NCBI GenBank assembly: GCA_030748895.1
Contig: JASMLC010000008.1
Span: 6,453-70,452, forward strand
Direction of reading: 5' to 3'
DNA: 64,000 bases
Origin: Candidatus Poseidoniia archaeon
Lineage (GTDB): Archaea > Thermoplasmatota > Poseidoniia > MGIII > CG-Epi1
Part shown: piece after piece, positions 20,089 through 49,578 of the stretch
Numbering within the stretch: the stretch's first letter is position 1
Layout of the letters: each line of letters opens with the position of its first letter
The notes under the pieces: model-generated
Database searches by the model: none
Told to the model about the DNA's origin: nothing
The model's input: the letters and a program-made list of their open reading frames with translations, nothing else
Made by a program: the position numbers and the translations under genes

Positions 20089-21129
20089 ATGGCAGGCGAG
20101 TGGGTCTTCGAGCTGGGCGGCGAGCAGCCGCAACTGGCGCACGCCGAGCTCGATGAACTGCTGACGGCGGCCGGCTGTGCGCCCGCTTTCACCGAGGCAG
20201 ACGGCCTGCGGCTGCGCTGCACCCTCGCACAGCCGCCACCGACCGGGCTGCTGGCGCGGCTGGGGATGGTGCGCAGCGGCGGCGAATTCGCCGCCGCTGG
20301 CTCGCTGACGGAGCTGGAAACGGCGGCGGTCGCCATCGACTTGGGCGGCGCGCGTTTTGCGGTGCGCTGCGCGCCCGGTGCGCTCAACCCGCAGGCGGTC
20401 AACCGGCGGCTCGGTGCCGCGCTGGCGAAGCACGGCCGCGTCGACCTCGAGCAGCCTGAAATCACGGTGCGCGTTTTCCAAGGCGACGCGCTCGAGTTAA
20501 TGCTCGAGCGCGAGCCGACCGGCTACCGCCGCTGCCTCGAACATCACCTGAACCGGCGGCCGCGCTTTGCGCCGGTCTCGCTGCCGCCACGGCTGGCGCG
20601 TGCGATGGTAAATCTGGCGCTCCCGTCAGGCGCTGCGGCAGGCGCTGCGGCAGGCGCCGAAGGCGATACTGCAGTCGCGGCCCCAACAGGCGACGGGCAA
20701 CTGCTCGACCCGTTCTGCGGCACCGGGGGGTTGCTGATTGAGGCGGCCGACTGCGGGCTGGCGGCGAGCGGCGGCGACTTCGACGGCGAGATGGTCGCCG
20801 CGACGCGCGAAAACCTGCAGCACTTTGGCTTCGCTGCGGAACTGGAGCAGGGCGACGCGGCCGCCGTGGTGCAGCGCGTGCGGCCGGCGGCAATCGCGAC
20901 CGACCCGCCCTACGGCCGCTCCGCGTCGACCGCGCGCGAGCCGCTCAGTGAGCTGCTCGCGCGCTTCGGCGCCGCCTGCGCGGAGGCGCTGCCGGCCGGC
21001 GGGCGGCTGGTGCTGGCGCTGCCCGATCCGGCGCTGCTGCCGCAGGCGGGCTTCAGCGAGCTGTTCCGCTGCGAGTGGTATGTCCACGGGTCGCTGACGC
21101 GGCACCTGCTGCTGCTCGAGCGCGACTAG
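20089..21129 (+). CDS. Trm11/TrmG10-like tRNA guanosine N2-methyltransferase
   Basis: This 346-residue protein has an N-terminal THUMP-like region (about 1-150) and a Rossmann methyltransferase domain. The fold's motifs are present: LLDPFCGTGGLLIEAA (AdoMet loop) and ATDPPYGRSAS, the catalytic DPPY motif of N2-guanosine methylases. The usual target of this family is G10 of tRNA. An Ala/Gly-rich insert of about 22 residues (AAGAAAGAEGDTAVAAPTG), coded by dispersed element R1, lies just before the DPFCGTGG motif where relatives have a short loop. ATG 20089 fits the TATA spacing. The 3' end overlaps the convergent PKD gene by 4 nt. Confidence 0.86.
   Translation: MAGEWVFELGGEQPQLAHAELDELLTAAGCAPAFTEADGLRLRCTLAQPPPTGLLARLGMVRSGGEFAAAGSLTELETAAVAIDLGGARFAVRCAPGALNPQAVNRRLGAALAKHGRVDLEQPEITVRVFQGDALELMLEREPTGYRRCLEHHLNRRPRFAPVSLPPRLARAMVNLALPSGAAAGAAAGAEGDTAVAAPTGDGQLLDPFCGTGGLLIEAADCGLAASGGDFDGEMVAATRENLQHFGFAAELEQGDAAAVVQRVRPAAIATDPPYGRSASTAREPLSELLARFGAACAEALPAGGRLVLALPDPALLPQAGFSELFRCEWYVHGSLTRHLLLLERD
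20622..20697 (+). repeat. Dispersed hairpin element R1, copy A (inside the methyltransferase gene)
   Basis: This copy starts CCCGTCAGGCGCTGCGG and ends CCCCAACAGGCGACGGG, giving CCCGTC/GACGGG inverted ends. It carries a 12-bp internal duplication (CAGGCGCTGCGG). The core GCAGTCGCGGCCCCAACAGG is shared with the copies at 28475 and 49528, and more weakly with the one at 23063. It is read through in frame. Confidence 0.85.
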
Positions 21130-21851
21130 TACTCGACGCGAATCGAGAGCTCGTAGGACATCGCGCCCGCGGTAGCCTCGATACGCCAGATCCAGTCACC
21201 AACACTATCGACCTGCCCACCAGAGAACTCCACTGAGAAACTGCCCTCGTTGTAGGTGTTGTTGAAAATCTCATCGCCGGTACCGTTGAAGACGGAAATG
21301 CTCACCTCCGAAGTGGTGAGGGTGCGCTCGTCAGTCAGGTTCCAGCCCAGCTCTACCCGCGTGCTATCGGCCTCGACCGGGAACTGCTGCTCTTCGGAGT
21401 TGCAGCCGCCCCCAGTAAGCTGGCACTGGACACCGCCCGAGCGTTCATCAGTGTAGGCGCTCGAGTCGCTGGAAACCGTCACCTGCACGATATCTGAATC
21501 AGTCGCGTTGGCAGGGTCGCTGACGGTGAGGGTTACCGAGTAGCTACCCTCCGCTTCCCAAGTGTAGGTGGTCATCAGTCCCGAAGAAGTATTGCCGTCG
21601 CCGAAATCCCAGTTGTAGACTAGCGGGTCACCGTCGGAATCGCTTGAGAGGTGACCCGATAGTGAAAGTTCCTCGCCAACCCCGACCTTACCGTTGGCCG
21701 GCTCCATCACAATCCTGGCGGTGGGGGTGTGGTTGACCTGTTCCTCCTCGTCGCCATCGTCAGCCTCGAGGACAAGGAACCAGTATCCTGCGCCAGCGCC
21801 AGCGCCGGCGACGAGGAGCAGCAGCAGGATTATCAGGCTCAGCTTCTTCAC
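21126..21851 (-). CDS. Membrane-anchored PKD-domain protein
   Basis: This 241-residue protein starts with a hydrophobic anchor (about 4-27) followed by an acidic linker. One PKD domain (about 42-128) is marked by NWDFGDGNTSSG, TYTWEAEGSYSVTLTVSD. A second beta-sandwich domain (about 130-241) contains a probable disulfide pair (VQCQLTGGGCNS). PKD domains usually mediate surface adhesion or serve as spacers. No enzyme domain is attached, so it is probably a cell-surface protein. Start GTG 21851 is followed by a TATA box at the right spacing and yields the signal anchor directly. Confidence 0.75.
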   Translation of the reverse strand: MKKLSLIILLLLLVAGAGAGAGYWFLVLEADDGDEEEQVNHTPTARIVMEPANGKVGVGEELSLSGHLSSDSDGDPLVYNWDFGDGNTSSGLMTTYTWEAEGSYSVTLTVSDPANATDSDIVQVTVSSDSSAYTDERSGGVQCQLTGGGCNSEEQQFPVEADSTRVELGWNLTDERTLTTSEVSISVFNGTGDEIFNNTYNEGSFSVEFSGGQVDSVGDWIWRIEATAGAMSYELSIRVEY

Positions 21852-21874
21852 GTGATTGTGCGACTATACCCCGG

Positions 21875-21882
21875 CTATATAG
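21875..21882 (-). promoter_or_regulatory. TATA box for the PKD gene
   Basis: CTATATAG is palindromic and lies 24-31 nt upstream of GTG 21851 on the minus strand. Confidence 0.55.
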
Positions 21883-21924
21883 AATTGTCACCCCCGACGG
21901 GAGGACTGCGTTCCTGAAGGAAAG

Positions 21925-21934
21925 CATATAAATA
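21925..21934 (+). promoter_or_regulatory. Strong TATA box for the ribosomal/RNAP operon
   Basis: CATATAAATA is the best TATA match in the window. It lies 46-55 nt before the TTG of rps13, leaving a leader of about 25 nt with the Shine-Dalgarno sequence GGGAGGA (21969-21975). It is the likely promoter for S13-S4-S11-Rpo3 and possibly the tRNA. Confidence 0.65.
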
Positions 21935-21979
21935 GGGGTCTAGACTGCCGCCAACTCCTGAGTCCTCAGGGAGGAATAT

Positions 21980-22438
21980 TTGGCCGAAGATAGCGAATTC
22001 AAATACATAGTCCGCATTGCAGAAACGGACATCCCCGGAGAGCAGAAGCTGGCGTATGCGTTGCCCTCCATCAAAGGCATTGGGCAGCGCATCAGCAACG
22101 CGCTGATTAGCCAGCTGAAACTTAACCCTGCGCGACCGGCTGGAGAGCTGGATGACGAGGACGTCGCCCGACTGGAAGAGGCCATTCGCAGCGCTGCCGG
22201 AAGCGTCCCGGCCTGGCTCACGAACCGGCAACGGGACTATGACTCGGGCGAGGACATGCATCAGGTAAGCATAGAGCTGAAGATGACACAGGAAGAAGAC
22301 ATTAATCGACTAAAGAAAATCAAGTGCTATCGCGGCGTACGGCACGCCTCGGGGCATAAGGTCCGCGGCCAGCGCACATACTCCAACGGACGACATGGTC
22401 TGGCTCTGGGCGTCAGCCGCAAGAAGATTAGTAAGTAG
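21980..22438 (+). CDS. rps13: 30S ribosomal protein S13
   Basis: This 152-residue small-subunit head protein contacts tRNA and the large subunit. Archaeal S13 features are YIVRIAETDIPGEQKLAYAL at the N-terminus, the helix-hairpin-helix IKGIGQRISNAL, and the basic C-terminus with KKIKCYRGVRHASGHKVRGQ and TYSNGR. The start is TTG 21980, with GGGAGGA six bases upstream. It heads the conserved archaeal order S13-S4-S11-RNAP subunit D, and the next ATG is 4 nt past its stop. Confidence 0.96.
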   Translation: MAEDSEFKYIVRIAETDIPGEQKLAYALPSIKGIGQRISNALISQLKLNPARPAGELDDEDVARLEEAIRSAAGSVPAWLTNRQRDYDSGEDMHQVSIELKMTQEEDINRLKKIKCYRGVRHASGHKVRGQRTYSNGRHGLALGVSRKKISK

Positions 22439-22442
22439 AATT

Positions 22443-23234
22443 ATGGGCGACCCGAGATTTCCCCGCAAGCATTACGATACTCCATCGCACCCCTGGCAGA
22501 AGGAGCGCATCGAGAAGGAGAGTGCGCTGGTCCACCAGTACGGACTCAAGAACAAGCGCGAAATCTGGAAGGCCGGTACAAGGGTGCGGCAGATGCGACA
22601 GCAGGCACGAAAACTCACCGCCACCGCCTCGGAGCAGGCGCAGAAGGAACGCAGGCTGTTGCTCGGCCGACTAGACCGGCTCGGACTGCTCGACCGCGGT
22701 TCCGACCTGGAGGACGTGCTGCGCATGGATGTCGAAAAGCTGCTTGACCGGCGACTACAAACGCAAGTTTACCTGCAGGGACTCGCTTCTACACCGAAAC
22801 AGTCACGGCAACTGATTACGCACGGCCACATCACCATCGATGGCGCCGTAGCACGGGTTCCCGGCATGCTGGTCACCCGCATGCAGGAGAAGCAGATTGC
22901 CTACTTCAGCGGCTCGCCGCTCATGAGCGACCTCCACCCGGTCCGGCCCAAGCCGCGCACCGACGCCGATTTCGACACAGAGCCGGCAGAGGACGAGGCA
23001 CCAGCGGCCCCGGCAGCGGAAGAGAAGGCTAAAGCCTCCGACGAGAAACAGGCGGAAGCACCGGCAGGCGCCGGAAGCGATGCCGCAGTCGCGACCTCAA
23101 CCGACGAGGCGAAGCCAAAGGCGAAGAAGACTGCTGCTAAAAAGAAGGAAAAACCCGCTGCAAAGGCTGAAAAATCAGCGGCTAAAAAATCAGCTAAACC
23201 TGCCCCGAAGGCCGCCAGCGAGGAGAAGAAATGA
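22443..23234 (+). CDS. rps4: 30S ribosomal protein S4 with long Ala/Lys-rich tail
   Basis: This 263-residue primary 16S rRNA-binding protein begins [20 protein letters not shown], typical of archaeal S4. An S4 RNA-binding domain with [17 protein letters not shown] and [11 protein letters not shown] lies at about 105-150. From about residue 172 to the end is a low-complexity tail of acidic/Ala then Lys/Ala repeats ([18 protein letters not shown]), making it clearly longer than the usual 170-190 residues. Part of the tail ([13 protein letters not shown]) is encoded by a copy of dispersed element R1. Start ATG 22443 follows the S13 stop. The frame upstream to 22395 is S13 shadow. Confidence 0.95.
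23063..23105 (+). repeat. Dispersed element R1, copy D (diverged, inside rps4)
   Basis: The stretch beginning GGCAGGCGCCGGAAGCGATG and continuing CCGCAGTCGCGACCTCAAC matches the R1 core with a few substitutions, in the same orientation and reading frame as copy A. It is the weakest of the four copies. Confidence 0.6.
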
Positions 23235-23620
23235 GCAGTGAACGCTGGGCCGTAGCGCACATCTTTGCGTCGCATAACAACGTCATTATCACCGTCACCG
23301 ACGCCACGGGCGCGGAGACCATCGCCAAGTGCTCGGGCGGCATGGTCGTCCGGGCACAGCGCGAGGAATCGCGCCCCCACGCGGCGATGCTTGCCGCCAA
23401 CCAAGTCGCCGACACCCTCAAGGAGCGCGGTATCGGGCAGGTACAGGTGCGGCTACGCGGCGCTGGCGGCAAGCGGGGCGGCAACCCCGGACCGGGCGCA
23501 CAGGCAGCCATCCGGGCGCTGACGCGCGCCGGCATCCTGATTACGCGCATCGACGACGTTACGCCGATTCCGCACGACGGCGGTAAGCCTAAAGGCGGGC
23601 GCCGTGGGCGGAGGGTCTGA
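23231..23620 (+). CDS. rps11: 30S ribosomal protein S11
   Basis: This 129-residue platform protein is near the mRNA exit. It shows the canonical S11 pattern: [70 protein letters not shown] and a C-terminal GGRRGRRV. Its ATG overlaps the rps4 stop (ATGA) and its stop overlaps the rpoD start, so translation is coupled within the operon. Confidence 0.97.
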
Positions 23621-24471
23621 TGAAGCTTAACGTCAGGGAACTCCGCGCCGATTACACCCTGCTCGAGTTCGAGGAGGTGAACTACTCGTTCCTCAACTCG
23701 CTGCGCCGTTCGCTGATCGCGATGGTGCCCTGCCTCGGAATCCACGAGGTCGACTTCCACATGGGGGCACTCGGCTCCTGGACTGACGAGGAAGGCGAAG
23801 AGCGCGAGTATGAATCCATCAGCGCCATGTTCAACGAAATCGTGGCGCACCGGCTGGGTATGCTGCCGGTCCCGACCGACTCAGCGACCATCGCTGCCTT
23901 TGGCGCGGCGCTGGACGACCCGGAGCAGCAGCCGGAAATCATGTATTCGCTCCACAAGCAGGGACCCTGCACAGTCTACTCGGGCGACCTGGAGCCGGTC
24001 AACGGCGACAAGTCACTCGCGATTCCCGACCCGCACATTCCCATCGTCAAACTGGGCGAGGGACAGGCCATTCTGGTCTACGCCCGCGCCATCATCGGTA
24101 CCGGCTCCCGGCACGCCAAATGGCAGGCTGCCGTTGCGCCTCGCTTCTACGAAGCGCAAACCGTGAAAATCAGTGGCAGCCGCGCCAAGGAGCTGGTTGA
24201 GACTGCCGGCACCGGCGGCTTCAAGAAAAGCGGTAAGGCTCAGGTCCTCAAAGACCCGGCCAAAGCGTACCAGGCCATCCGCAACCTGCGGCGGTACCAC
24301 GACGACCCCAAGGCCGAGGAGGCCATTGAGGTCGAAACGCTGACCGACCACTACCTCTTCGAGTTCGAGACCAACGGTGCCGTGAGCGCCAAACTGGCGC
24401 TGGAGCAAGCCCTTAAAGCACTCGATTCGCACTGCGCCGAGTTCGTTGCCGGCCTCGAAGCGGCAGCCTGA
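23620..24471 (+). CDS. rpoD: DNA-directed RNA polymerase subunit D (Rpo3)
   Basis: This 283-residue assembly-platform subunit of archaeal RNA polymerase corresponds to Rpb3/alpha. N-terminal features are SFLNSLRRSLIAMVPCLGIHEVDF and MFNEIVAHRLGMLPVPTD. The insert domain contains PHIPIVKLGEGQ and a following GTGSRHAKWQAA. The C-terminal dimerisation helix ends in a short Ala tail. No 4Fe-4S-type cysteine cluster is seen in the insert domain. Its TGA is followed directly, with no spacer, by tRNA-Leu. The usual downstream partner L18e is not present. Confidence 0.95.
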   Translation: MKLNVRELRADYTLLEFEEVNYSFLNSLRRSLIAMVPCLGIHEVDFHMGALGSWTDEEGEEREYESISAMFNEIVAHRLGMLPVPTDSATIAAFGAALDDPEQQPEIMYSLHKQGPCTVYSGDLEPVNGDKSLAIPDPHIPIVKLGEGQAILVYARAIIGTGSRHAKWQAAVAPRFYEAQTVKISGSRAKELVETAGTGGFKKSGKAQVLKDPAKAYQAIRNLRRYHDDPKAEEAIEVETLTDHYLFEFETNGAVSAKLALEQALKALDSHCAEFVAGLEAAA

Positions 24472-24559
24472 GCGGGGGTCGCATAGCATGGCCAATTGCG
24501 CCAGGTTGAGGGCCTGGTCCTTTAGAGGTACGAGGGTTCAAATCCCTCCCCCCGCACCA
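24472..24559 (+). tRNA. tRNA-Leu(GAG) with encoded CCA
   Basis: Acceptor stem GCGGGGG/CCCCCGC (24472-24478 and 24549-24555) carries discriminator A and an encoded CCA at 24557-24559. Anticodon stem CCAGG/CCTGG (24501-24505 and 24513-24517) frames loop TTGAGGG, giving anticodon GAG at 24508-24510. The T arm is GAGGG-TTCAAAT-CCCTC. The variable region of about 14 nt can form a CCT/AGG arm, as expected for a class II leucine tRNA. The gene begins at the base after the rpoD stop. Confidence 0.92.
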
Positions 24560-24591
24560 CCATCACAATGTTGTTTTTGGTCAAGGTTTTA

Positions 24592-24624
24592 CAGCGGCTG
24601 GGCGGAGCGCAGCCGCTGAAAAAA
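24592..24624 (+). terminator. Hairpin followed by A-tract downstream of tRNA-Leu
   Basis: A perfect 9-bp inverted repeat CAGCGGCTG/CAGCCGCTG with a 9-nt loop is followed by six A on the plus strand. It lies between the tRNA and its duplicated 3' end. It may terminate or process the tRNA transcript, or be a leftover structure of an integrated element. Confidence 0.4.
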
Positions 24625-24629
24625 GCTTG

Positions 24630-24663
24630 GTTTGAATCCGGCCCCCCGCACCATCATCACAAT
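24630..24663 (+). repeat. Duplicated 3' end of tRNA-Leu (att-like)
   Basis: This 34-bp stretch matches 24536-24569, the tRNA T-loop to 10 nt past CCA, at 29 of 34 positions. The segment starting CCCCCCGCACCA and ending CATCACAAT is identical except for one base. The copies are 94 bp apart in direct orientation. No other tRNA arms are present, so this is not a second tRNA. Confidence 0.8.
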
Positions 24664-24666
24664 AAT

Positions 24667-26442
24667 TTACTTTATATCTATATCGTGCAGAGAAACTATC
24701 TCGTACTTACCACCCGGCAATAACTTCTCGACCGCCTCGCGGGACTGCCCGAAGGCACTGGCTAACTGCGCCACCAGCGCCTTGCGCTCGGTGAAGCCGG
24801 GCTTCAGCGTGACCCAGCGGCTGGCGTGCGCCTGCACCGCCGCGGGCGGGCCAGCCATCAGCTTCGGCGCGCCGTCACGCTCGATTTCGCCGAGCGCCAG
24901 CTCAACCGCCAGATTGCGATGCCACTTGCGCCGGCCGCGGACCATGAACGCCCCCTTGGGCAGGAATTCTCCCGCCGGCGCCGTCTTCGAAACCTGGTCG
25001 CTCTCGACCCAGTAAGCGTGCCCGGAGGCGACGCCGGCAGCCCAGGCACGCGAGCAGGCGAGGCTGAAGCGGCACGCCTCTTCCATCGCCGCTGCCGAGG
25101 GTGGCTCCGTGCCGTGCTTGACGACGACGCTGGGCGCACCGTGGATATCGGCGTGCGCGTAGCGGTCGCCCGCCTTGAGGTAGCGTTTGACGATGCGGTC
25201 GTTGGATGTAGCGTCGCGGCCGGCTACCGCAATCTCGCCGCTGGAGGCGATGAACCAGCGGTAGCGCTCGAACCACTCCTGCGGTGCGGTCGGCTTCGCA
25301 ACCTTGCGCTTGCGCGGTCGCGGCACCGCCGCCAGCTCGCGCGCGCGCAGTGCCTTGCGCTCGAGCCGCTTTGCGGCGTCGAAGAGCCACGAAGCGTTCG
25401 ACTCAGCCGGGAGCGCCGCCTCCAGCTCCAGCTCGCGCCCCTCCAGCTCAATCTTCAGCCGGCCGCGGTAGTCTGGCTCGCCCGCTACCAGCGCCTCCGC
25501 TACCTCGGCAGCGTGCGCGAAGAGCAGTTCGCCGTCGCTGCGCAACTGCTCCGCCTCGGCCAGGAACTGTTCCGCCGCTTCGCGCTGCTTTGCTTCACGG
25601 CGCTCATCAGCGTTCGGCGGCGTGACTGGCTCCGGGCGCAGTTCACGGAAGGCGGCAATCGCTGCGTCGAAGGTATCGAAGTCGCGGCGGTCGTCGAACC
25701 CCTCGAGTAGGAACGGCGAGACGGTCGCCGGCTCGCCGTCGCGGAAAAAGATAGTGGGCTGCCGCTCGCCATCAAGCAGGCTGCGGACGCGCTGCCATAG
25801 CGTCGCCATGCTTGCGGCGGGCAGCTTTGCGGCGCGCGTCCCCGTAAGGCCACGCGCAGCGGTTTCGGCCAGGTCGCCGCCCAGGTTACACTCAACCGCC
25901 AGCGCCGGCACCAGCTCGCGCTTCGACGCGGCCAGCTGTTCAGCGAACTGCGTCTCGCTCGCCGCAAATGGGTCGCAAGGCGACGGCGGCGGGAGATAGA
26001 CTTCGCCGGGCCCCAGCGTACGATGGCGGAACTCCTGCCGTCGCAACGCCTGCACGATATTGCCATCCTCGCAGAGCAGCGCGTTGCCGCGGTGGAACAG
26101 CTCGAGCAGCAGCACCGGCCGAGCCTCGCCCGCCGCGAAGCGCAGCTCCAGGATGCGGTCCGCCCCGAGTTGCGCTATCGACTCGAGCCGCGCCTTACGG
26201 ATATGCCGTCGCAGTTCTGTAATGAAACCGCCGGTCGTCGGGGCGCCGACCGGCGCGTCACCCAGCCAGGCCCAGCCCTGCAAATCAACCAGCAGGTGCA
26301 GCGTCCCCTGCTGGCGGTGGCGTAGCTTGAGGTGCAGCAGGTTGGCTTCGGGGCGCTGGACTTGCTCGACACGCGCGCCAACTAGTGACTGCCAGCTCTC
26401 AACAAGTGCCCGCAGGTCGGGGCTGCTGAGCGCCTTCTTCAT
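24667..26442 (-). CDS. rqcH: RqcH/NFACT-family ribosome quality control factor
   Basis: This 591-residue protein has the NFACT layout: NFACT-N domain (about 1-240, with LHLKLRHRQQGTLHLLVDLQ-like strands), a helix-hairpin/coiled-coil middle (about 285-400), and an NFACT-R domain with YRWFIASSGEIAVAGRDATSNDRIVKRYL, HADIHGAPSVVVKHG and SGHAYWVE. Homologues bind obstructed large subunits and, in bacteria and archaea, add alanine tails to stalled chains. ATG 26442 was selected because GGGAGGCG precedes it and it is the expected N-terminus. It lies 13 nt after the upstream CARDB gene, so it is probably co-transcribed with it. Confidence 0.92.
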   Translation of the reverse strand: MKKALSSPDLRALVESWQSLVGARVEQVQRPEANLLHLKLRHRQQGTLHLLVDLQGWAWLGDAPVGAPTTGGFITELRRHIRKARLESIAQLGADRILELRFAAGEARPVLLLELFHRGNALLCEDGNIVQALRRQEFRHRTLGPGEVYLPPPSPCDPFAASETQFAEQLAASKRELVPALAVECNLGGDLAETAARGLTGTRAAKLPAASMATLWQRVRSLLDGERQPTIFFRDGEPATVSPFLLEGFDDRRDFDTFDAAIAAFRELRPEPVTPPNADERREAKQREAAEQFLAEAEQLRSDGELLFAHAAEVAEALVAGEPDYRGRLKIELEGRELELEAALPAESNASWLFDAAKRLERKALRARELAAVPRPRKRKVAKPTAPQEWFERYRWFIASSGEIAVAGRDATSNDRIVKRYLKAGDRYAHADIHGAPSVVVKHGTEPPSAAAMEEACRFSLACSRAWAAGVASGHAYWVESDQVSKTAPAGEFLPKGAFMVRGRRKWHRNLAVELALGEIERDGAPKLMAGPPAAVQAHASRWVTLKPGFTERKALVAQLASAFGQSREAVEKLLPGGKYEIVSLHDIDIK

Positions 26443-26455
26443 CGCCTCCCGCAGC

Positions 26456-27847
26456 CTACTCTTCGTCTTCGCTGCGGTAATAGCGCGAGAGCAGCACCGC
26501 CGCACCGACCGAGGCGGTCAACGCGGTGAAGCCTAGATAGAACGACGGGTTTGCCGTCTTGATGCGCACTACCTTGAAAGTGGTCGAGGCCTCGTTGTTA
26601 GTCTCGTCGCTCTCCGTGATAGCCTTGTCCCCAGGCTTGCTGCCATCGAGGTTGTTATACTGGTCAACCATCACCTTCACCGGCAGGCCGGTTTCGCTAT
26701 CACTGTGGGGGCGGTTGGGCTTGTAGCTGACTGATACTGTCTCCTCTTCGCCATGGTCGAGTGAACTTACGTACTGGACCGTGCCGACAGTTGACCCGTC
26801 GACAGTGAACCATACGTCCACGTTCGTGGCGCTGTTTCCAGCCGTATCCATGCTTCCACCATTGTTCCGTACCTTGGCAGTTATCGTCACGAGCTGTGAA
26901 TTGCCACGAGCGGTAATCCAGGCCGAGGTGTGAGAGAAGGAAATGTCAGTCGCCTTGATTTCAAGGTCGGGTTCCGGGAGAACTACTGAAAATGTGGCGC
27001 TGTCGGAAGCCCCGTTGCTCGAAGTCGCTGAAATCGTCACGGTGTAGGTAGCGGGAGCGGCTCCCGAGGACGGCGTGATGGTTATCTCGCCTGTGTGACT
27101 GTGGGTTGCGACAGTGTTGCTCTGGCCCTTGATTTCGAGGCCGTTGCTCAATCCAGTGGTCAAGGTCCAGGCGTGGGCCGTGGTTGAAACCGAGAAGTCG
27201 TAGGTGTCATCATTCCAGCCGGTGTTGGTTACCGTGTAACGCCAGACCGTCGTTTCACCCTGATACACCTTGTTGGTGCTGGCCGTCGAGGTTGATTCTG
27301 CGGTCACATCAACCGTGTAGGCATTGACTGCTGTTATGGTGATATCAATAGAGTTGGTTGCATTATTGGAACCTGCCGGGTCGCCCGCATTGTCATCTCC
27401 GTCCACAGTCATGTAGCGGGGGTCACTCTTGCCGTAAACCGTTATGGTGTTCGAGGTACCACCAGTACATGCTCCGATACAGACAACGCTCAGGTAGGCC
27501 GTAGCGGTGCCGCCCTTGGCCACGTCAATTGACTGGCCGGGAAGCTCGTTTCCAGAGGAATCCGAGAAGACGTAGGGCCAGTCCGTACCGGACAGCCAGC
27601 TGCCGTAGAGTTTGACGGTCTGGTAGTTGTAGGTGTTGTCGCTACTAGTGAGGGTCAGGGTGAAGGTCACTGATTCGCCCGCGAGGACGTTACCCGTAGA
27701 AGCGCTGGAAGCCAGAGTTATCGGCGAGGCCGCACTCACCGTGCTGGTTAGCGCCAGCGTAGTGAAGAGCAGTGCGCCTGCAATGAGCGCAACAAGCATA
27801 CGGCGGCCGCCGTTCGCATTCGGTTCTACTGGTTTCATAGCCATCAT
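26456..27847 (-). CDS. Secreted CARDB-type surface protein with C-terminal anchor
   Basis: This 463-residue Ser/Thr-rich exported protein has an N-terminal signal peptide (about 15-40) and several beta-sandwich domains. A C-terminal CARDB-like domain runs about 298-425, with VTITAKVRNNGGS and the terminal ESDETNNEAS typical of CARDB adhesion domains. The C-terminal span SFYLGFTALTASVGAAVLLS is followed by an acidic tail. It is likely an abundant cell-surface or S-layer-associated protein. The leader carries GGAGG 10 nt before the first ATG, unlike the leaderless neighbours. ATGs at 27844 and 27838 are alternatives. Base composition is less GC-rich than adjacent housekeeping genes. Confidence 0.75.
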   Translation of the reverse strand: MMAMKPVEPNANGGRRMLVALIAGALLFTTLALTSTVSAASPITLASSASTGNVLAGESVTFTLTLTSSDNTYNYQTVKLYGSWLSGTDWPYVFSDSSGNELPGQSIDVAKGGTATAYLSVVCIGACTGGTSNTITVYGKSDPRYMTVDGDDNAGDPAGSNNATNSIDITITAVNAYTVDVTAESTSTASTNKVYQGETTVWRYTVTNTGWNDDTYDFSVSTTAHAWTLTTGLSNGLEIKGQSNTVATHSHTGEITITPSSGAAPATYTVTISATSSNGASDSATFSVVLPEPDLEIKATDISFSHTSAWITARGNSQLVTITAKVRNNGGSMDTAGNSATNVDVWFTVDGSTVGTVQYVSSLDHGEEETVSVSYKPNRPHSDSETGLPVKVMVDQYNNLDGSKPGDKAITESDETNNEASTTFKVVRIKTANPSFYLGFTALTASVGAAVLLSRYYRSEDEE

Positions 27848-27963: not shown

Positions 27964-28998
27964 GTGGCAGCTACGAATTCTATCGAAACTGACATGCAAC
28001 GCTTTGGCGCGCTGTTCGCCGCCGCGACCGACGCCAGCGAGGACGCGCAGCCGCTTGCGGCCGGCAGCGTTATCGTCGCTGGCATGGGCGGCTCGGGCAT
28101 CGCCGGCCGGCTGGCGCAGGCGCTCGCGGAGCGGTGCGGTGGGCTGCGCGTCAGCGCCTGGAGCGACTACGGGCTGCCGGCATGGGCCGACGGCAGCGAG
28201 CGGCTCATCGCGGTTTCGTATTCGGGCAACACCGCCGAGACGCTCTCAGGCGTCGAGCGCGCCATCGAGCTGGGATGCGGCTGGGAGGCGATTACTACCG
28301 GCGGCCGCCTCGCCGCACTGGGGCGGGAGTATGGCGCGCCCGTGACCGCCATCGAGCCGGGGCACCAGCCGCGCGCCGCGCTGCCGCTGCTGCTGGTGCC
28401 GCTGCTGCAGCGGCTGCCGATTGCCGGGATTGCGGCGCAACTGACCGAAGCGGGGGAAGTGCTTGGCGCCGCGGTATCGCCTGTTGGGGCCGCGACTGCG
28501 GCATCGCCTCCGGCGCCGGCCGCAGCGCCTGACGGGGGCGAGAGCGGCGCCACCGCCAGCCCCGCCGCGATTGCGGCGCAGCTCGCCGGCAAGCTGCCGT
28601 TCATCTATGGTGCCGGCGGCCTCGCGACGGTGGCGTACCGCTGGCGCTGCCAGATTGCGGAGAACGCCAAGCAACTGGCGGTGCACCACGCGCTGCCCGA
28701 GCTGGACCACAACGAGATTGTCGGCTGGGCCTCCCCGCCTCCGAACGCGGTCGTCGTCGCGCTGCGCGAGCCGGACGAGCCGGCCCGCGTCGCGGCGCGC
28801 TGGAAAGCGACGCGCGCGGCGGCGTGGCGCGACGTCCCGGTCATCGAGTGCCGGGCACGTGGCGAAAGCCCGCTGGCGCGCTGGCTCTCGCTGGTGCATC
28901 TGGGAGACACGGTCTCGGTGGAGCTGGCGCACCTCAACGGGGTGGAGCCGACCCCGGTGAGGGTGATTGAGGAGCTGAAGCGGAGGCTGGATGACTGA
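27964..28998 (+). CDS. Bifunctional phosphoglucose/phosphomannose isomerase
   Basis: This 344-residue SIS-fold enzyme interconverts fructose-6-P with glucose-6-P and mannose-6-P. SIS motifs are VAGMGGSGIAG (38-48) and VSYSGNTAET. The PGI/PMI catalytic region has ENAKQLAVHHALPELDHNEI, with the expected Glu near 233 and His near 250. An insert rich in Ala, Pro and Gly (about residues 171-200, including SPVGAATAASPPAPAAAP) separates the two SIS domains and coincides with dispersed element R1 in reverse orientation. Start is GTG 27964. Its stop overlaps the ATG of carS. It feeds sugar phosphates to the GlmS route and central metabolism. Confidence 0.9.
   Translation: MAATNSIETDMQRFGALFAAATDASEDAQPLAAGSVIVAGMGGSGIAGRLAQALAERCGGLRVSAWSDYGLPAWADGSERLIAVSYSGNTAETLSGVERAIELGCGWEAITTGGRLAALGREYGAPVTAIEPGHQPRAALPLLLVPLLQRLPIAGIAAQLTEAGEVLGAAVSPVGAATAASPPAPAAAPDGGESGATASPAAIAAQLAGKLPFIYGAGGLATVAYRWRCQIAENAKQLAVHHALPELDHNEIVGWASPPPNAVVVALREPDEPARVAARWKATRAAAWRDVPVIECRARGESPLARWLSLVHLGDTVSVELAHLNGVEPTPVRVIEELKRRLDD
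28475..28536 (-). repeat. Dispersed hairpin element R1, copy B (inside the PGI/PMI gene, reversed)
   Basis: On the minus strand it starts CCCGTCAGGCGCTGCGG and ends CCCCAACAGGCGATA, matching copy A apart from lacking its 12-bp duplication. CTGCGGC and GCCGCAG form a 7-bp stem within it. It is translated in frame although reversed relative to copy A. Confidence 0.85.
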
Positions 28999-40087: not shown

Positions 40088-40089
40088 CG

Positions 40090-41834: not shown

Positions 41835-41852
41835 GGTGGGCCAGCGAACAGG

Positions 41853-41863: not shown

Positions 41864-41868
41864 CAAAC

Positions 41869-42234: not shown

Positions 42235-42255
42235 GCCCTTTGAACAGGGAGGGGG

Positions 42256-42262
42256 ACTTTAA
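42256..42262 (-). promoter_or_regulatory. TATA-like promoter for the 42234 gene
   Basis: The minus strand reads TTAAAGT within GATTAAAGTCCC, 22-28 nt upstream of ATG 42234. Confidence 0.4.
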
Positions 42263-42325
42263 TCTCACCGTGCCCTCCCCGCGACGGCAGGGGACGTACC
42301 ACCGGCAGCTGGAAACGAGATAATA

Positions 42326-42718: not shown

Positions 42719-42750
42719 TGGGTAAAACGTGACTATGCTGCGCGTCCGGG

Positions 42751-43332
42751 TCAGGGGGCTGCCCGGTTGGAAGTGTGGCGGAAACAGCTGACGAGATGGT
42801 CGTCGACCATGCCCGCGGCCTGCATCATAGCGTAGCAGGTGGTCGGGCCGATGAAGGTGAATCCGAGCTTCTTGAGGGCTTTGCTCATCCCGGTGCTCGC
42901 CTCGGTAGTGGCAGGGAGGTCCTCCATTCTCTCACGATGGTTAACCACCGGCCCGCCGTCGACGAATGACCAGAGGAATTCGCTGAAGGCGTCCTCGTCG
43001 GCGCCGAAATGCTCGACGAAAACCCTGGCGTTGTTGATGGCGGACTTGATCTTGGCACGATTGCGGATGATGCCTGCATCCGTCACGAGGCGCTCGATAT
43101 CTTCCGCGCCGTACGCGGCGACCCGGGCGGGGTCGAAACCGTCGAAGGCCCGCCGGTAGTTCTCGCGCTTCCTGAGAATCGTAATCCATGAGAGCCCGGC
43201 TTGCGCGCCCTCGAGGATAATCTTCTCGAACAGGCGCCGCCCATCGCGGTTGGGCGTGCCCCATTCCGTATCGTGGTAGGCAAGGTAGAGCGGGTCGTTG
43301 CCCGCCCATGGGCAGCGATTCGGCTCGTTCAT
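42751..43332 (-). CDS. tag: DNA-3-methyladenine glycosylase I
   Basis: This 193-residue base-excision enzyme removes 3-methyladenine from alkylated DNA. It begins MNEPNRCPWAGNDPLYLAYH and continues DTEWGTP, giving zinc ligands Cys7 and His20. The other two ligands are in DDHLVSCFRH (His179, Cys183), the HxxxC spacing of Tag. Other family segments are LEGAQAGLSWITILRKRENYR and GFTFIGPTTCYAMMQAAG. ATG 43332 is preferred; ATG 43344, preceded by CAGGG, would add four residues. It follows the BNR lipoprotein gene by 19 nt. Tag is mainly bacterial, so acquisition by transfer is likely. Confidence 0.92.
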   Translation of the reverse strand: MNEPNRCPWAGNDPLYLAYHDTEWGTPNRDGRRLFEKIILEGAQAGLSWITILRKRENYRRAFDGFDPARVAAYGAEDIERLVTDAGIIRNRAKIKSAINNARVFVEHFGADEDAFSEFLWSFVDGGPVVNHRERMEDLPATTEASTGMSKALKKLGFTFIGPTTCYAMMQAAGMVDDHLVSCFRHTSNRAAP

Positions 43333-43351
43333 GGTGCTGCCCATCCCTGCT

Positions 43352-44866
43352 TCAAACCAGCGGAGGCAGTTCGCCCACCGCTTCGTAGAGGCTCGGCCCG
43401 CTGCCCAGGTAGTAGACTGAACCCAGACGACTGCGGGAATCCTCAGGCTGCGGATCATCCTTGGTGGCGCATTCACCCGTGCAGCCGTCGGCGAAAGCGA
43501 TGTAGACGCGCCCTTCCCTATCGATATGGAGGTCGTTGAAATCGAGCAGATTCCGGTTGGAGCCGCCGATGTCGCGGCAATCTCCGCTGTTCAGGCAGAT
43601 GCTGCCGACCTGGACAGGGTCTGCGGATACGCGCACCGTGTGGAACACGGGGTTCGGATCCAGCGCATTCAGGCTGTAGGTGACGTAGAGGTAGTAACTG
43701 ACGTTGGAATTGGCGTAGTGGGCATTGCCATCCCATGGATTATCGTCTATGTCGGGTTGGTTCAATTCACTCGCGTCCTCACTCCCTAGGTAAGTAATCG
43801 CAATTCTTCCGGGATCCCCTGCATCAACCTGAGGGAATACTGACGAGATGACTGCGCTCGGGCTGATCCGAATGCTAGTCTGTTCCCATGACTCCCCTGA
43901 ATCAGTACTCCTCGACATGTAGACGCCTTCGTCGGCCCCGGTCCAGATGTGGTATGCATTGGATTCGGTGTCGGTGGCAACCTCCGAATTTTTGCGTGGA
44001 TAGGGCGTACCTACATCCTCACCCATGGTTCGATCAACCCAAGACAAACCATTGTCATCGGAAACGATGACTGTGGGTGTTTCGACTCTGGGGGTCACAT
44101 ATACCGTTCCATCCGGTGCAGAAGTGATGGCTCCATGGAGTCCACCATTGGTGGTGGCCAAACCGTAGATTTGTCCGCCTGCGTCAAATGTAGCACCTCC
44201 ATCAAAACTGGTGTAGCAGAAGATTCCAGCGAGTTTGTTGTAACAATAGTATACGGCTTGGTCATAGTAAGCTTGGGACACTTGGCCGCCGATACCGTAT
44301 CCACTGCTCGTCCAAGGGCCCGTTGCCAGTTTGATGTGATCATTAATCGGAGTCGTACCAGAGTCGTGCATATTGCCCTCCCAAGTTTCTCCATCATCAT
44401 CGCTCCAGCATATCCAAGACGTCTCCAGACCCTGCATCTGCACGTTGAATATCCGATCAGTCACAGGATCAACCCACCCCCACGGGTCATTGGTCTGGAA
44501 CGCGCATAAAGGACCCGTCACGTCCTCCCATGATTGGCCATGGTCGCAAGAACGCATGACCTTCTCAAACGCGATGAAAAAGATGCAGCCGCTCGAGGTG
44601 ATGCCGATGCTCGGCTCAGCCCCGTTCTCGCCCACGTCGCTGAAGACGAAGCTGAGCGGCAGGGGCAGTTCATCGACCGCCAGGCCATCGGACCCAGTGA
44701 CGAAGACCCCGTCCGGCAGCGGCGGCTCCTCGGGCGGAGGCGGCGGTGGCGTGGGGGACTGGAGGCAGCCCGAGAGGCCACTTGCCGAGACCAGAAGGAA
44801 GGCTATCGCCAGCCGCATGAACTGCACCTGAAATCGCATCGGTGAGTCCACTGGGGAGACCGTCAT
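43352..44866 (-). CDS. BNR/Asp-box beta-propeller lipoprotein (sialidase-like)
   Basis: This 504-residue exported protein has a lipobox (SGLSGC, about residues 29-34) followed by a Pro-rich linker. At least five Asp boxes of the form SxDxGxxW appear: SCDHGQSW, SDDDGETW, SFDGGATF, SDDNGLSW and STDSGESW. This indicates a sialidase-type propeller on the cell surface. No Arg triad of a true sialidase is recognisable, so binding or another glycan activity is equally possible. The middle of the gene is visibly AT-richer than its neighbours, consistent with recent acquisition. In-frame starts at 44866, 44839 and 44818 are all possible. Confidence 0.72.
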   Translation of the reverse strand: MTVSPVDSPMRFQVQFMRLAIAFLLVSASGLSGCLQSPTPPPPPPEEPPLPDGVFVTGSDGLAVDELPLPLSFVFSDVGENGAEPSIGITSSGCIFFIAFEKVMRSCDHGQSWEDVTGPLCAFQTNDPWGWVDPVTDRIFNVQMQGLETSWICWSDDDGETWEGNMHDSGTTPINDHIKLATGPWTSSGYGIGGQVSQAYYDQAVYYCYNKLAGIFCYTSFDGGATFDAGGQIYGLATTNGGLHGAITSAPDGTVYVTPRVETPTVIVSDDNGLSWVDRTMGEDVGTPYPRKNSEVATDTESNAYHIWTGADEGVYMSRSTDSGESWEQTSIRISPSAVISSVFPQVDAGDPGRIAITYLGSEDASELNQPDIDDNPWDGNAHYANSNVSYYLYVTYSLNALDPNPVFHTVRVSADPVQVGSICLNSGDCRDIGGSNRNLLDFNDLHIDREGRVYIAFADGCTGECATKDDPQPEDSRSRLGSVYYLGSGPSLYEAVGELPPLV

Positions 44867-44891
44867 AACAGTTTGCTGGAATTTTCCGCTC

Positions 44892-46076
44892 CTAATCCAG
44901 CGTAATCGACGGCATCAGCGGGCGCGTCGCGAAGCCCTTGAGTGCGAAGTTGGAGCCTTCGCCGACGCGGCAGACAAAGAGGTCGCGATGGTGCCGGGAG
45001 AGGCCGAATTCGTCGAAGCAGGCGACGCCGCCGCACACTTCCATCGCCAGCGTCAGCAGGTCGCTGGCGCGGCGCGAGCACTCGACCTTGACCTTCGCGG
45101 CCGACTCGCGGTCAAGCGTGCCCGCGTCGTAGCGCCGGCAGAGGTCGACGAGCCAGGTCAGCCCCTGCTCGAGCGCGATGTCCATGTCAAGCACGACGTC
45201 CTGCACGCGCTGGTAGCGGCCGAGCGGGCCGCCCATGATTTCGCGCTCCTGCGCGTATTCGCGGACGCGGTCGAGTGCGCAAGCCAGCGACGCCAGCGAA
45301 AGCGCGGCGATGAAGAGCCGGCCGCCGTTGAGCGTCTGCGCCATCACCCGGAAGCCTGCGTTCAGGTCGCCGAGCAGGTCGCCTTCGGAAACGCGCACGT
45401 TGTCAAGCATGATTGAGCCGGTCGAGGACTGCTCCCAGAGGTCCTTGCCCGCCATCTCCTGGTAATGGACGCCGTCGGCGTCCATCGGGACGATGAAGCA
45501 GCTCGAGCGGTGGCCCGGCTTCCCGTCGGGGGCAGTCAGTGCATTGACGATAACGTGCGACGCCCACATCGCGTTGGTAGACCAGCACTTCTCGCCGCGG
45601 ATGACCCAGCCGTCGCTGTCGCGCGTCGCGCTGACCTGCGGGTTGGCGGCGTCGGTGCCGCGCGCCGGCTCCGAGAGGCCGAATACGAACATGCGCTTGC
45701 CCGCCGCTAGGTCGGGGAGGTGCGCCGCCTTCTGTGCTTCCGTGCCGCAGAGCTGCAGTGGCTTGGCGCCGAGTGAGAGCGCGGCGCCCGGCGTGATGGC
45801 CAGCGACTGCGACTGGTAGCCGAGCGCGAGGCCCATCAGCAGCAGGTCCAGCTGCGAGCCGCCCTGCCCGCCGTATTCTTCGGAAACGGTAATGCCAAAC
45901 AGCCCCATTTCGGCCATCTGCGCGATGGCGTCGTCGGGAATCAGCGCGTGGCCGCGCTCCCACTCCAACCAGCGCGGCGCGATGGCGTCGTCGACGAAGT
46001 CATGCATCGCACGGTGGAACGTGAGCTGGTCGTCATCGACCAGCCGTTGCAGGTAGTGGTCAATCTGCCGCGCCAT
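44892..46076 (-). CDS. Acyl-CoA dehydrogenase
   Basis: This 394-residue FAD enzyme oxidises acyl-CoA to enoyl-CoA in fatty- or amino-acid degradation. Family features are MGLFGITVSEEYGGQGGS, FGLSEPARGTDAANPQ, GEKCWSTNAMWASHVIVNA, NGGRLFIAALSLA, and the C-terminal catalytic-base region CRVGEGSNFALKGF, where the Glu lies in the YEGT-equivalent position. Chain-length preference cannot be read. It stands alone, without the electron-transfer flavoprotein genes. ATG 46076 has a TATA-like box 21-29 nt upstream. Confidence 0.9.
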   Translation of the reverse strand: MARQIDHYLQRLVDDDQLTFHRAMHDFVDDAIAPRWLEWERGHALIPDDAIAQMAEMGLFGITVSEEYGGQGGSQLDLLLMGLALGYQSQSLAITPGAALSLGAKPLQLCGTEAQKAAHLPDLAAGKRMFVFGLSEPARGTDAANPQVSATRDSDGWVIRGEKCWSTNAMWASHVIVNALTAPDGKPGHRSSCFIVPMDADGVHYQEMAGKDLWEQSSTGSIMLDNVRVSEGDLLGDLNAGFRVMAQTLNGGRLFIAALSLASLACALDRVREYAQEREIMGGPLGRYQRVQDVVLDMDIALEQGLTWLVDLCRRYDAGTLDRESAAKVKVECSRRASDLLTLAMEVCGGVACFDEFGLSRHHRDLFVCRVGEGSNFALKGFATRPLMPSITLD

Positions 46077-46096
46077 CGGTCGGGCACCGCCGCGCG

Positions 46097-46105
46097 GTTT
46101 TAAAG
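46097..46105 (-). promoter_or_regulatory. TATA-like promoter for the acyl-CoA dehydrogenase
   Basis: The minus strand reads CTTTAAAAC, 21-29 nt upstream of ATG 46076, immediately after the MFS stop. Confidence 0.5.
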
Positions 46106-46107
46106 GC

Positions 46108-47649
46108 TCAACGGGAACGGCCTATTGCGCCACGGGGCGGCTCGGGCTCATAGTCGGCCAGCAGCTCGGGCGGCCAGTCGCGCGGCGCGTCGTCGACCCC
46201 TTGCAGGATGATGTAGCCGACGATGGTGAAGAGGAACAGCGCGGCGACTGCTGCCGGCCGCCCCCAGCCGAGCGTGTCGACAATCAGCGCCCACATCACC
46301 GGGCCGATGATGGTTGCGAAGCGGCCGACCATCGAGTAGAGCCCGTAGAACTGCCCCACGAGGCGCGGCGGTGTCAGCCGCAGCATGTAGGGGCGGTCAG
46401 CCGCCCATGTGCCGCTCAGCGCGATGCCGGCGGTCGCCGCGCCGACCCACAGGATGGCGGTCGGCAGGTCAAAGAGGGCGACGCCGATTATCATCGTGAA
46501 GTTGAAGAACCAGGTCCAGAGGACGAGGTTGAGACTGGTTTTCGGGCCGAGCCAGTCAACCACCCAGCCCCAGCCGAAGCCGCCTAGAATCGAGGTGCCG
46601 ATACCGATGAGCAGGAAATACTGCACCTGCTGCGTGCTGAAGTCGAACTCGCCGGTGATGTAAATTCCCATAAAGACGATGAGCGTGTTCACCGCGTCGG
46701 TATAGAACATCCGCCCGATGAGGAAACGTCCCAGCCCCGGGAACTGCTTGACACGGCGCACCGTGTCGCGCACCTGCCGGAACGCGCCGCCGATGAATTT
46801 CAACTGGAAGTTGCGTTTCAGCAGCGGCGCGGTCCGCGCGCGCAGGTACGCGCCGCCCGCGATGATGGCGGCGACTAGCAGCGCCAGCGAATAGTCGCCG
46901 CCGAGCAGCCACGCGTTCAGCAGCAGCAGCAGCGCTGCCAGCAGCCAGAGCGAGGGCCAGAAGTCGTCGGTTTCGGTCTCGCGCACGAAGACGAAGCAGG
47001 GGATCGAGAACATCAGGAACAGCAGCGCCGAGACCTGGAACATACCGACGTAGCCGATAATCCCCAGCAGCAGGATTCCGGCGCCGACGCCGAGGAAGCT
47101 GCCGACATACCCGAGGCCGATGCCGACCCCGCCCACGCGGCCGCGGTTCGCGTCAGTCGAGACGACCGGCAGCAGCGAATCGTAGAATATCAGTCCCGCC
47201 TGATAGAAGTAGTTCGCGACGACGAAAATCCCGAGCGAGAGCAGCAGCCGGTCGTCGCGCGCCAGCCCGCCGTCGTAGCCCAGCAGCGCGGTGAAGGCAA
47301 CACAGACCAGCGTCGTCACGACCAGGAACGGCATCCGCCGCTTGGCCTGGTCGGAAAGCGCGCCCAGCACCGGCGCGGTCAGGAAAATCAGCAGCATCGA
47401 GATTGAATTAGCGTAGCCGTAGTGCGAGTCGCTACCGCCCATCTCCAGCACGATCCACAACCCGAAGTAGAGCGAGACTATGTTGAGCGAGAAAACGGTG
47501 TTGGCAAGGTCGTAGAGCGACCATGAAATCAGCGGCAGCCACCCCACCTTGGCGGTCAGCGGCTCGACCGGGCGCGGCATTTCGCGCAGTTTGCGCGCCC
47601 GCTCCCGCAGGGCCCGGCCGCGCTGGCGCAGCCGCTCGCGCCGATTCAC
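46108..47649 (-). CDS. UMF1-family MFS transporter (second of a pair)
   Basis: This 513-residue 12-span permease has a basic cytoplasmic N-terminus (RERLRQRGRALRERARK) and the UMF1 opening ISWSLYDLANTVFSLNIVSLYF, plus PVLGALSDQAKRRMPFL, the MFS loop 2-3. UMF1 transporters are related to eukaryotic vacuolar Atg22 amino-acid effluxers. The substrate here is unknown. Start GTG 47649 overlaps the stop of the other UMF1 gene (GTGA), so both are translated together and might form a pair or transport related substrates. Confidence 0.82.
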   Translation of the reverse strand: MNRRERLRQRGRALRERARKLREMPRPVEPLTAKVGWLPLISWSLYDLANTVFSLNIVSLYFGLWIVLEMGGSDSHYGYANSISMLLIFLTAPVLGALSDQAKRRMPFLVVTTLVCVAFTALLGYDGGLARDDRLLLSLGIFVVANYFYQAGLIFYDSLLPVVSTDANRGRVGGVGIGLGYVGSFLGVGAGILLLGIIGYVGMFQVSALLFLMFSIPCFVFVRETETDDFWPSLWLLAALLLLLNAWLLGGDYSLALLVAAIIAGGAYLRARTAPLLKRNFQLKFIGGAFRQVRDTVRRVKQFPGLGRFLIGRMFYTDAVNTLIVFMGIYITGEFDFSTQQVQYFLLIGIGTSILGGFGWGWVVDWLGPKTSLNLVLWTWFFNFTMIIGVALFDLPTAILWVGAATAGIALSGTWAADRPYMLRLTPPRLVGQFYGLYSMVGRFATIIGPVMWALIVDTLGWGRPAAVAALFLFTIVGYIILQGVDDAPRDWPPELLADYEPEPPRGAIGRSR

Positions 47650-49478
47650 CCTGCGTTTCCGCGCTTCCGCTCGTCTTCGACAGCCGCGACGCGGATGCCA
47701 GCGTCGACGTCAATCCGCTGGAGCAGCACGGCTCCGATGACCACCAGCACACCGAGGCTCAGGACCGCGGTACGGCTGTCGAACAGGCCCGTGACGAGCA
47801 CGTAGATTAGTGGCCCGAGGAAAGCGGCGATTCGGCCGAAAAAGCCGAAAAAGCCGAAGAATTCGGCCGAGCGCGTCTGCGGCACCATCTGGCCGAAGAT
47901 GGAGCGCGCCAAGCCTTGCGAGCCGCCGAGGAGCAGTCCCGCCAGCAGCCCCAGGAAAAGCCACTGCAACGAAATACCGAAGCCGAGCGGCGCCCAGAAA
48001 TTATCGCGCAGGAAGCTCGGGAAAGCGTCGATAGCGCCGTCACCGAGCGAAGTGGGATGGTCTTCCCCGAGCGCGGTCTGCCCATCGAGCAGCCCGCCAC
48101 TAACAGAAGCCGAGAAGTGGCCGTCGCCGCCAATCGCGGCGAGGAACGCGGTCGCGCGTTCTTCGTTGGCGGAGCCGGTCGCGTCGGCTGATATTTCGCC
48201 TTCGACGTCGAGCGGCAGGATGTCCGCCCATTCGGCCTTGAACGCCTGGTCGGCGTCCGATTCCCCGAGCGAGACGCCGCCCAACGCGGTGACTTCATAG
48301 CCGGATTCGTCCCAGTCGAACTGGAAGTCATACTCGTCGTGCTCCGCCAGCTCGAGCGGCGCGAAGCCGACCGCGCCGAAGATGATGACGACCCAACCCA
48401 CCAGTGCCACGGTGAGTGCGGTCTTGGTCGAGGTCGAACCGGCGAGCCGCGTGAAGAGCATCGCCGACGGGGCGGCGACAAATTGCACCAGCAGGATGAC
48501 CGCCATGTTGAGCACCAGCGGGATTCCCAGAACCCCTGCGCCAAAAGCACCGGCGAGGGAGGTCACGGAGTTGATGCCGTCGATGAAGAAGAAGTAGGCC
48601 ACGATGTACATGGCGAGCACCCGGAAGCGGCTGACTTCACCAAGGGTCTTGCGCACTTCGGTCAGCGCCAGCCGCGTGGCAGAGCCGAAGGTGAGATTGC
48701 GCACCGGGTCGGGGATGTGTGGCTCGGGCACCCAGTTAATCGTAATCAGCGCGAAGCCGTACCACCACAGCCCCGAACTGGCGAGTGCCACCGGGACAAC
48801 CCAGCCGAGCATGTTCCCGTCGGCGTCGACCAGGATGCTGACCATCGCCAGGTGGATCGCGAGCAGGATGCCGCCGCCGAAATAGCCATAGGCAAAGGCA
48901 CGGTTGGAGATATCGTCCATCTGCACCGGCCCGCCCCGGTGCGCCACTTCGTAATCGGCGCTGGCGCGCTCGCCCAGATAGGGCAGCATCGCATTGTAGA
49001 AGATGGTCGCTGAAAGCAGCCCCATATTCGCCAGAACGTAGAAAACAAAAAGCCAGATGAAACCCCAGTGTGCCGACAGGAAGTAGGCGCCCGCCAGCAA
49101 CACCGTCGCGCCAGCGCCAGCCCAGGTCAGGTACTTCGTAAGCTTCATCTTGATTTCGGCGCGGTCGGCGATGACTCCCATACCGGGGCCGACCAGCGCG
49201 ATGATAATCGCCGAGAGGAACGTCGCCCAGGCCCACATTGAGTCGCCCGTAAACGTGAAGCCAGCCAGCGTCAGCTCGCTGCCGTACGCGTGCTTGAAGA
49301 GCGTGACGAAGTAGACCGGCAGGATGGCGACGACGATGCTGGTCTCGAAGGCAGACTTGGCCCAGTCGTAGTAGCACCAGCCGCGAATCGCCTTCCGCTC
49401 ACCGTCCGGAAGGTCGCCAATGTTGCTCTCCAGCCCGAAAATCTGTCCTATCCTGTCGTTGCTGCCCATGGCTACCAC
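47646..49478 (-). CDS. UMF1-family MFS transporter with large extracytoplasmic insert
   Basis: This 610-residue permease opens with KAIRGWCYYDWAKSAFETSIVVAILP, the UMF1 signature, and has about 12 spans. A soluble acidic insert of about 115 residues (about 388-500, including FQFDWDESGYEVTALGG and ANEERATAFLAAIGGDGH) interrupts the second half between spans. This is unusual for MFS proteins and may bind a ligand on the outer face. Start GTG 49478 is favoured by a TATA-like box about 24-30 nt upstream; ATG 49469 is an alternative. The downstream UMF1 gene is coupled by 4 nt. Confidence 0.8.
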   Translation of the reverse strand: MVAMGSNDRIGQIFGLESNIGDLPDGERKAIRGWCYYDWAKSAFETSIVVAILPVYFVTLFKHAYGSELTLAGFTFTGDSMWAWATFLSAIIIALVGPGMGVIADRAEIKMKLTKYLTWAGAGATVLLAGAYFLSAHWGFIWLFVFYVLANMGLLSATIFYNAMLPYLGERASADYEVAHRGGPVQMDDISNRAFAYGYFGGGILLAIHLAMVSILVDADGNMLGWVVPVALASSGLWWYGFALITINWVPEPHIPDPVRNLTFGSATRLALTEVRKTLGEVSRFRVLAMYIVAYFFFIDGINSVTSLAGAFGAGVLGIPLVLNMAVILLVQFVAAPSAMLFTRLAGSTSTKTALTVALVGWVVIIFGAVGFAPLELAEHDEYDFQFDWDESGYEVTALGGVSLGESDADQAFKAEWADILPLDVEGEISADATGSANEERATAFLAAIGGDGHFSASVSGGLLDGQTALGEDHPTSLGDGAIDAFPSFLRDNFWAPLGFGISLQWLFLGLLAGLLLGGSQGLARSIFGQMVPQTRSAEFFGFFGFFGRIAAFLGPLIYVLVTGLFDSRTAVLSLGVLVVIGAVLLQRIDVDAGIRVAAVEDERKRGNAG

Positions 49479-49501
49479 ACCAGCGGGGCGAGAGCGTCCC
49501 G

Positions 49502-49508
49502 CTAAAAA
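49502..49508 (-). promoter_or_regulatory. TATA-like promoter for the UMF1 pair
   Basis: The plus strand CTAAAAA (49502-49508) reads TTTTTAG towards the genes, 24-30 nt upstream of GTG 49478. It lies at one end of a repeat-bearing spacer. Confidence 0.4.
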
Positions 49509-49527
49509 CCGCTACCCTGCGCTGCCA

Positions 49528-49578
49528 GTCGCCTGTTGGGGCCGCGACTGCGGCATCGCTCTGGCGCGCCGCAGCACC
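49528..49578 (-). repeat. Dispersed hairpin element R1, copy C (intergenic)
   Basis: On the minus strand it carries GCGATGCCGCAGTCGCGGCC followed by CCAACAGGCGAC, identical to copy B over the core. CTGCGGC and GCCGCAG form a 7-bp stem. This is the only R1 copy found outside a coding region. Confidence 0.85.

Follow-up and report, generated by a model that had tools for sequence, protein, structure and literature searches.

A short dispersed repeat carried in frame in unrelated genes of a Poseidoniia archaeon

The 64,000-nucleotide stretch of DNA analysed here (the window) carries four copies of a short repeat, R1, three within genes and one between genes. Copy A is a 60-bp unit (20628-20687, minus strand) in the gene of a THUMP/RMKL-like tRNA (guanine-10) methyltransferase (19876-21129, plus strand; PF01170; PDB 5e71 and 6zxv), and copy B is a 48-bp unit (28483-28530, plus strand) in the PGI/PMI gene (27964-28998, plus strand; PF10432; PDB 1tzb), between the regions coding for the two SIS domains. 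Copy C is an intergenic unit of 45 bp (49535-49579, plus strand), and copy D (about 23049-23107, minus strand) is a diverged copy in the low-complexity tail of rpS4 (22395-23234, plus strand). Copies A and B are 91% identical over 58 bp, and matches were also obtained between A and C, D and B, and A and D. These pairwise matches, along with a profile search of the genome, confirmed all four copies proposed in an initial sequence-only reading, whose statements on their orientation, their in-frame position and their placement at domain boundaries were also found to be right.

BLAST searches of the whole 1.41-Mb genome (a 72-contig draft, 97% complete) with copy A retrieved further R1 loci with E values of 1e-7 to 1e-21, far above chance. 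Ten copies were used to build a sequence-only profile, which, with E < 1e-5 as the cut-off for counted copies, yielded 11 copies at 10 loci, the weaker matches being GC-rich coding noise. Besides copies A-D, contig C17 has two loci, contigs C9, C6 and C14 have one each, and C7 has two units in tandem. R1 is found in frame at six loci, namely the genes of the tRNA methyltransferase, PGI/PMI, CysRS, a CysRS-like protein, ThiI and an unnamed protein on C7, which contains two 48-bp units in tandem; the remaining loci are copy D and three intergenic ones. For recent insertions, the identity between copies within the genome is 93-95% by BLAST. The solo motif GCGCCTNNCGGGG was also tried as a finder of more copies and discarded, its matches being ordinary coding sites, mostly unoccupied.

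Empty orthologous sites were found in related genomes for six genic loci. In the methyltransferase orthologues of three relatives of the same genus (G002, G003 and G004) exactly the 60 bp of copy A are missing, and its excision from the window leaves TCGAGCAGTTGCCCGTCGCCT^GACGGGAGCGCC, a sequence with a single mismatch to G002 and G004, where the flanks of the target site, CTCCCGTC (20620-20627) and AGGCGACGGG (20688-20697), are uninterrupted. Excision from the methyltransferase, ThiI or C7 gene restores the empty site of the relatives, to which the joined flanks are identical except for 1-2 mismatches in about 37 bp. The PGI insert (copy B) is absent in four relatives (G002, G004, G005 and contig C15 of G003), that of CysRS in G001, G003, G004 and G005, and that of the CysRS-like protein in G002, G004 and G005. 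The C7 gene of G001 and G002 is without the 2x48-bp insert, and the 27-bp insert of ThiI occurs in G002 but not in G001. Copy D is absent from rpS4 of G002, and the intergenic region orthologous to that of copy C measures only a few tens of bases in G004 and is without R1. A clean CGCCT target is not apparent in the CysRS relatives. Judging from the presence/absence pattern, the methyltransferase, PGI, CysRS and CysRS-like inserts were gained in this lineage; in the case of ThiI and the C7 gene, the relatives may instead have lost the insert through deletion between flanking GCCT repeats. That R1 is a real dispersed insertion is almost certain. The initial proposal of a small dispersed element tolerated in frame is borne out by the further copies across the genome and by the insert-free host genes of the relatives, and neither of the outcomes named beforehand as fatal to it, the same insert in distant orthologues or a lack of further copies, was encountered.

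The 48-bp unit, GTTGRGGCCGCGACTGCGGCATCGCCTNCGGCGCCTGCCGCAGCGCCT, starts with GTTGRGG and ends with GCAGCGCCT, its last bases being CGCCT. On its 5' side there is always CGCCT or a one-base variant, and on its 3' side GACGGG, TGCGG or a close variant, the target form being (R)(T/G)CGCCT^(GA/TG)CGGGG. Insert-free relatives already have the right flank and, for the methyltransferase gene, all of the 20-bp target, so that these sequences belong to the target and not to the element, correcting the previous identification of CCCGTC/GACGGG as the ends of copy A. The tag beside the unit is CGTC in copies A and B, C7 and ThiI, and CGCA in C17, C9, copy C and the copy at locus L010. The unit is made up of segments of 27 + 9 + 12 bp bounded by internal GCCT motifs, and the copies, with lengths of 27, 48, 60 (48 + 12) and 96 bp (2x48), end on these GCCT joints; thus, copy A consists of the 48-bp unit and an extra 12-bp CCGCAGCGCCTG module. 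The 36-bp L010 copy has lost 12 bp between GCGGC repeats, and in the C7 gene of G001 and G002 the CTGCCGCAGCGCCTGACGGGG tail is already there. A locus-specific target duplication, as in MITEs, was also looked at, and CGCCT was found on both sides of R1, near-identical at all loci. The two ends (GTTGGGG at the start) are not inverted copies of each other, so that R1 is without terminal inverted repeats.

R1 had initially been described as a hairpin element, and a 7-bp stem with a 16-nt loop does occur in most copies, with the exception of the ThiI copy, which is without the second arm. The DNA folding z-scores of the copies that were folded range from -1.9 to +0.5, values that are ordinary for their composition, and no compensatory changes or covariation in the stem were found among the copies. 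By taking into account these folding energies, the lack of compensatory changes and the missing arm of the ThiI copy, palindromy is not the defining property of R1, and a conserved hairpin is not supported. The methyltransferase target is itself a small hairpin, CCCGTC-GCCT-GACGGG, also in the relatives without the insert.

The reading frame is conserved in genes only. The six genic inserts with defined ends measure 60, 48, 48, 48, 96 and 27 bp, all multiples of three, and two of the four intergenic lengths (45, 36, 47 and 28 bp) are not, namely 47 and 28. In genes, only one forward frame (fwd 1, PVGAATAASPAAPAAAPDG) and one reverse frame (rev 0, GAAAGAAGDAAVAAPTGD) are used, encoding Pro/Ala/Ser or Ala/Gly inserts; the frames that are not used, some of them open, would yield Arg-rich peptides, Cys/Trp peptides or a stop codon. 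The phase of the target motif may partly set the frame, so that frame use is not independent proof of selection. Alignment gaps with respect to known structures place the PGI/PMI insert between the SIS domains (PDB 1tzb), the methyltransferase insert directly ahead of the methyltransferase domain of TrmG10 (PDB 5e71) and the CysRS insert between the catalytic and DALR domains (PDB 1li5). CysRS (C17) and its CysRS-like paralogue (C9), the latter without DALR_2 and CysS_C domain matches, carry R1 at the corresponding linker. In ThiI (C6; L008 1480-1550), the linker including the 27-bp insert is as long as the unrelated-looking linker of G003-G005, to which it bears a faint similarity.

R1 is restricted to one genus. 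Within it, G002 carries the ThiI copy and the orthologue of the C14 copy, G001 a private intergenic copy, and contig C24 of G003 a PGI copy that is 100% identical to copy B. Among 84,980 genomes, the R1 core was found in two drafts only, both of the same genus ('Euryarchaeota archaeon' NP106 and ARS43), and profile and sequence searches of the other genera of the family gave no convincing copy. Weak matches in G003:C6, G005:C7 and at G002:C34:35405 were rejected as ordinary coding sequence. A viral source of R1 was also rejected, since no relative was found in the viral_contigs set. Draft G003 has two PGI/PMI genes (C15 and C24), of which the C24 gene is 100% identical to that of the window; contig C24 probably comes from a strain of the window's species.

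The dispersal of R1, its precise insertion at sites that are empty in relatives, the similarity of its targets, its modular lengths ending at GCCT and the conservation of the frame in genes only are best accounted for by a very short non-autonomous element of one genus, copied at CGCCT/GCCT microhomology, of which only the harmless insertions survive, a statement that, taken as a whole, is given a probability of about 0.5. Copying would use the CGCCT microhomology common to the unit end and the target, and may proceed by template switching or ectopic conversion in replication or repair; the internal GCCT repeats would generate the 27-, 48-, 60- and 2x48-bp versions; and genic copies would survive only at domain boundaries and in a host frame that makes them inert linkers of Pro/Ala/Ser or Ala/Gly. 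Microhomology copying is the simplest account because CGCCT is common to unit end and target and lengths change at internal GCCT motifs. Alone, it leaves the repeated spread of one particular sequence unexplained, and the five-base CGCCT repeats flanking the unit may just as well represent target duplications or a recombinase core.

The main rival to microhomology copying is an enzyme acting in trans, so that R1 would be a MITE- or REP-like sequence moved by a transposase or a recombinase, be it of HUH, IS110-like, tyrosine/serine or DDE type, with CGCCT^nnCGGGG as its recognition site and with CGCCT left on either side of the unit. Enzyme-driven transposition typically gives exact sequence-specific junctions and repeated recent insertions such as these, the copies being 93-95% identical, and the CGTC-tagged REPs are likewise without known transposase (PMC3733652). 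However, a survey of the draft genomes of the genus for the Y1 and IS110 families matched neither a Y1 transposase (Y1_Tnp, PF01797, IS200/IS605 or RAYT type) nor an IS110-type one (Transposase_20, PF02371) in any of six genomes, with the positive controls matched in both cases; terminal inverted repeats are missing and length varies by internal modules; viral contigs hold no relative of R1 and the 84,980 genomes only the two same-genus records; and R2, a second repeat described below, which is likewise missing from relatives, arranged in tandem and joined at a motif that it shares with its target, speaks for a general process in this genome rather than for a single dedicated enzyme. By taking into account both sets of data, an enzyme in trans is a tentative possibility, short of even odds. 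It is rather unlikely that R1 was born in the genus from native linker DNA, such as the ThiI linker, which may be close to the origin of R1, or the tail of the C7 gene, and multiplied without transposase, through copying directed by microhomology between GCCT motifs; if true, a selfish coding micro-element would be seen in the course of its birth, with the intermediate lengths still visible.

Two further explanations deny dispersal or the repeats themselves. Tandem expansion within native linkers, made alike by Ala/Gly/Pro codon bias, would be consistent with the two tandem 48-bp units of the C7 locus, with the tail already found there in G001 and G002, and with the many weak profile matches that are GC-rich coding noise. 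Stretches of 48-60 bp with 91-95% identity are, however, found in unrelated genes, in both orientations and also between genes, the empty sites are clean with no seed unit, and other genes read identical DNA on the opposite strand, making this explanation very improbable. Assembly or binning artefacts deserve even less credit: the genome is a 72-contig draft and assemblers may be confused by repeats, but the copies lie deep within long contigs with intact frames, and the PGI copy in G003:C24, identical to that of the window, and the ThiI copy in G002 come from separate assemblies.

Among known systems, the Rickettsia palindromic elements (RPEs), which measure about 105-150 bp and have terminal inverted repeats as well as long stem-loops (PMC2229807, PMC10969869), are like R1 in that they are short, dispersed and without known transposase, and lie both in frame within many unrelated conserved genes and between genes. 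The likeness to RPEs that had been pointed out holds for in-frame dispersal in unrelated genes (the six genic loci with empty sites, and rpS4), and fails for the size (27-60 bp, or 96 bp in tandem), the terminal inverted repeat and the strong long stem-loop, the R1 hairpin being weak and non-covarying. CGTC-tagged REPs (Di Nocera 2013; PMC3733652) are also short, without dedicated transposase and sometimes intragenic, and CGTC adjoins the unit on the reverse strand of some R1 copies. However, CGTC is target-derived in R1, with CGCA instead in about half of the copies, and the AT-started stems of 8-9 bp and the CCA tail of that family (PMC3733652) are not found in R1; its classification as a CGTC-tagged REP was rejected on the non-invariant tag, the 7-bp stem and the missing CCA tail. 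Archaeal MITEs (Sulfolobus and others) are similarly small, non-autonomous and dispersed, but R1 lacks their terminal inverted repeats, no parent transposon was found, and its CGCCT flanks are constant whereas the target duplications of MITEs are variable.

The belief that there is no archaeal counterpart has to be abandoned in view of the palindromic coding repeats of Methanocaldococcus jannaschii (Suyama, Lathe and Bork 2005, as cited in PMC2996958 and PMC2229807). As described in these citing papers, they share with R1 an archaeal host, coding potential and fusion into protein genes, and differ from it in lineage, R1 being not clearly palindromic and having a defined target. Since R1 departs from RPEs in size and palindrome, and from CGTC-tagged REPs in tag and stem, it is assigned to neither. 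R1 works like an RPE, its best functional analogue, and represents a new, smaller and modular form of this kind of repeat. Protein-coding selfish repeats are, thus, not peculiar to Rickettsia. R1 is relevant to the way in which essential enzymes acquire new linkers, and the sister genomes supply exact before/after sites, so that the insertion rule, the modular growth and the frame filter are directly testable.

The second dispersed repeat, R2, is found in the window at 19113-19262, as two 75-bp tandem units that are absent in G002, G003 and G004, and at 49707-49757. Its site is a native AGCGGCCGCG motif of the target, which is also the start of the R2 unit, with a junction pattern as in R1. 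The 50-bp copy, 90% identical, lies in the same intergenic region as copy C of R1. Short insertions cluster in this region (49500-49755), a hot spot that exceeds its G004 counterpart by about 200 bp and contains R1, R2 and GGCGCAGCCTGGCGTCA repeats.
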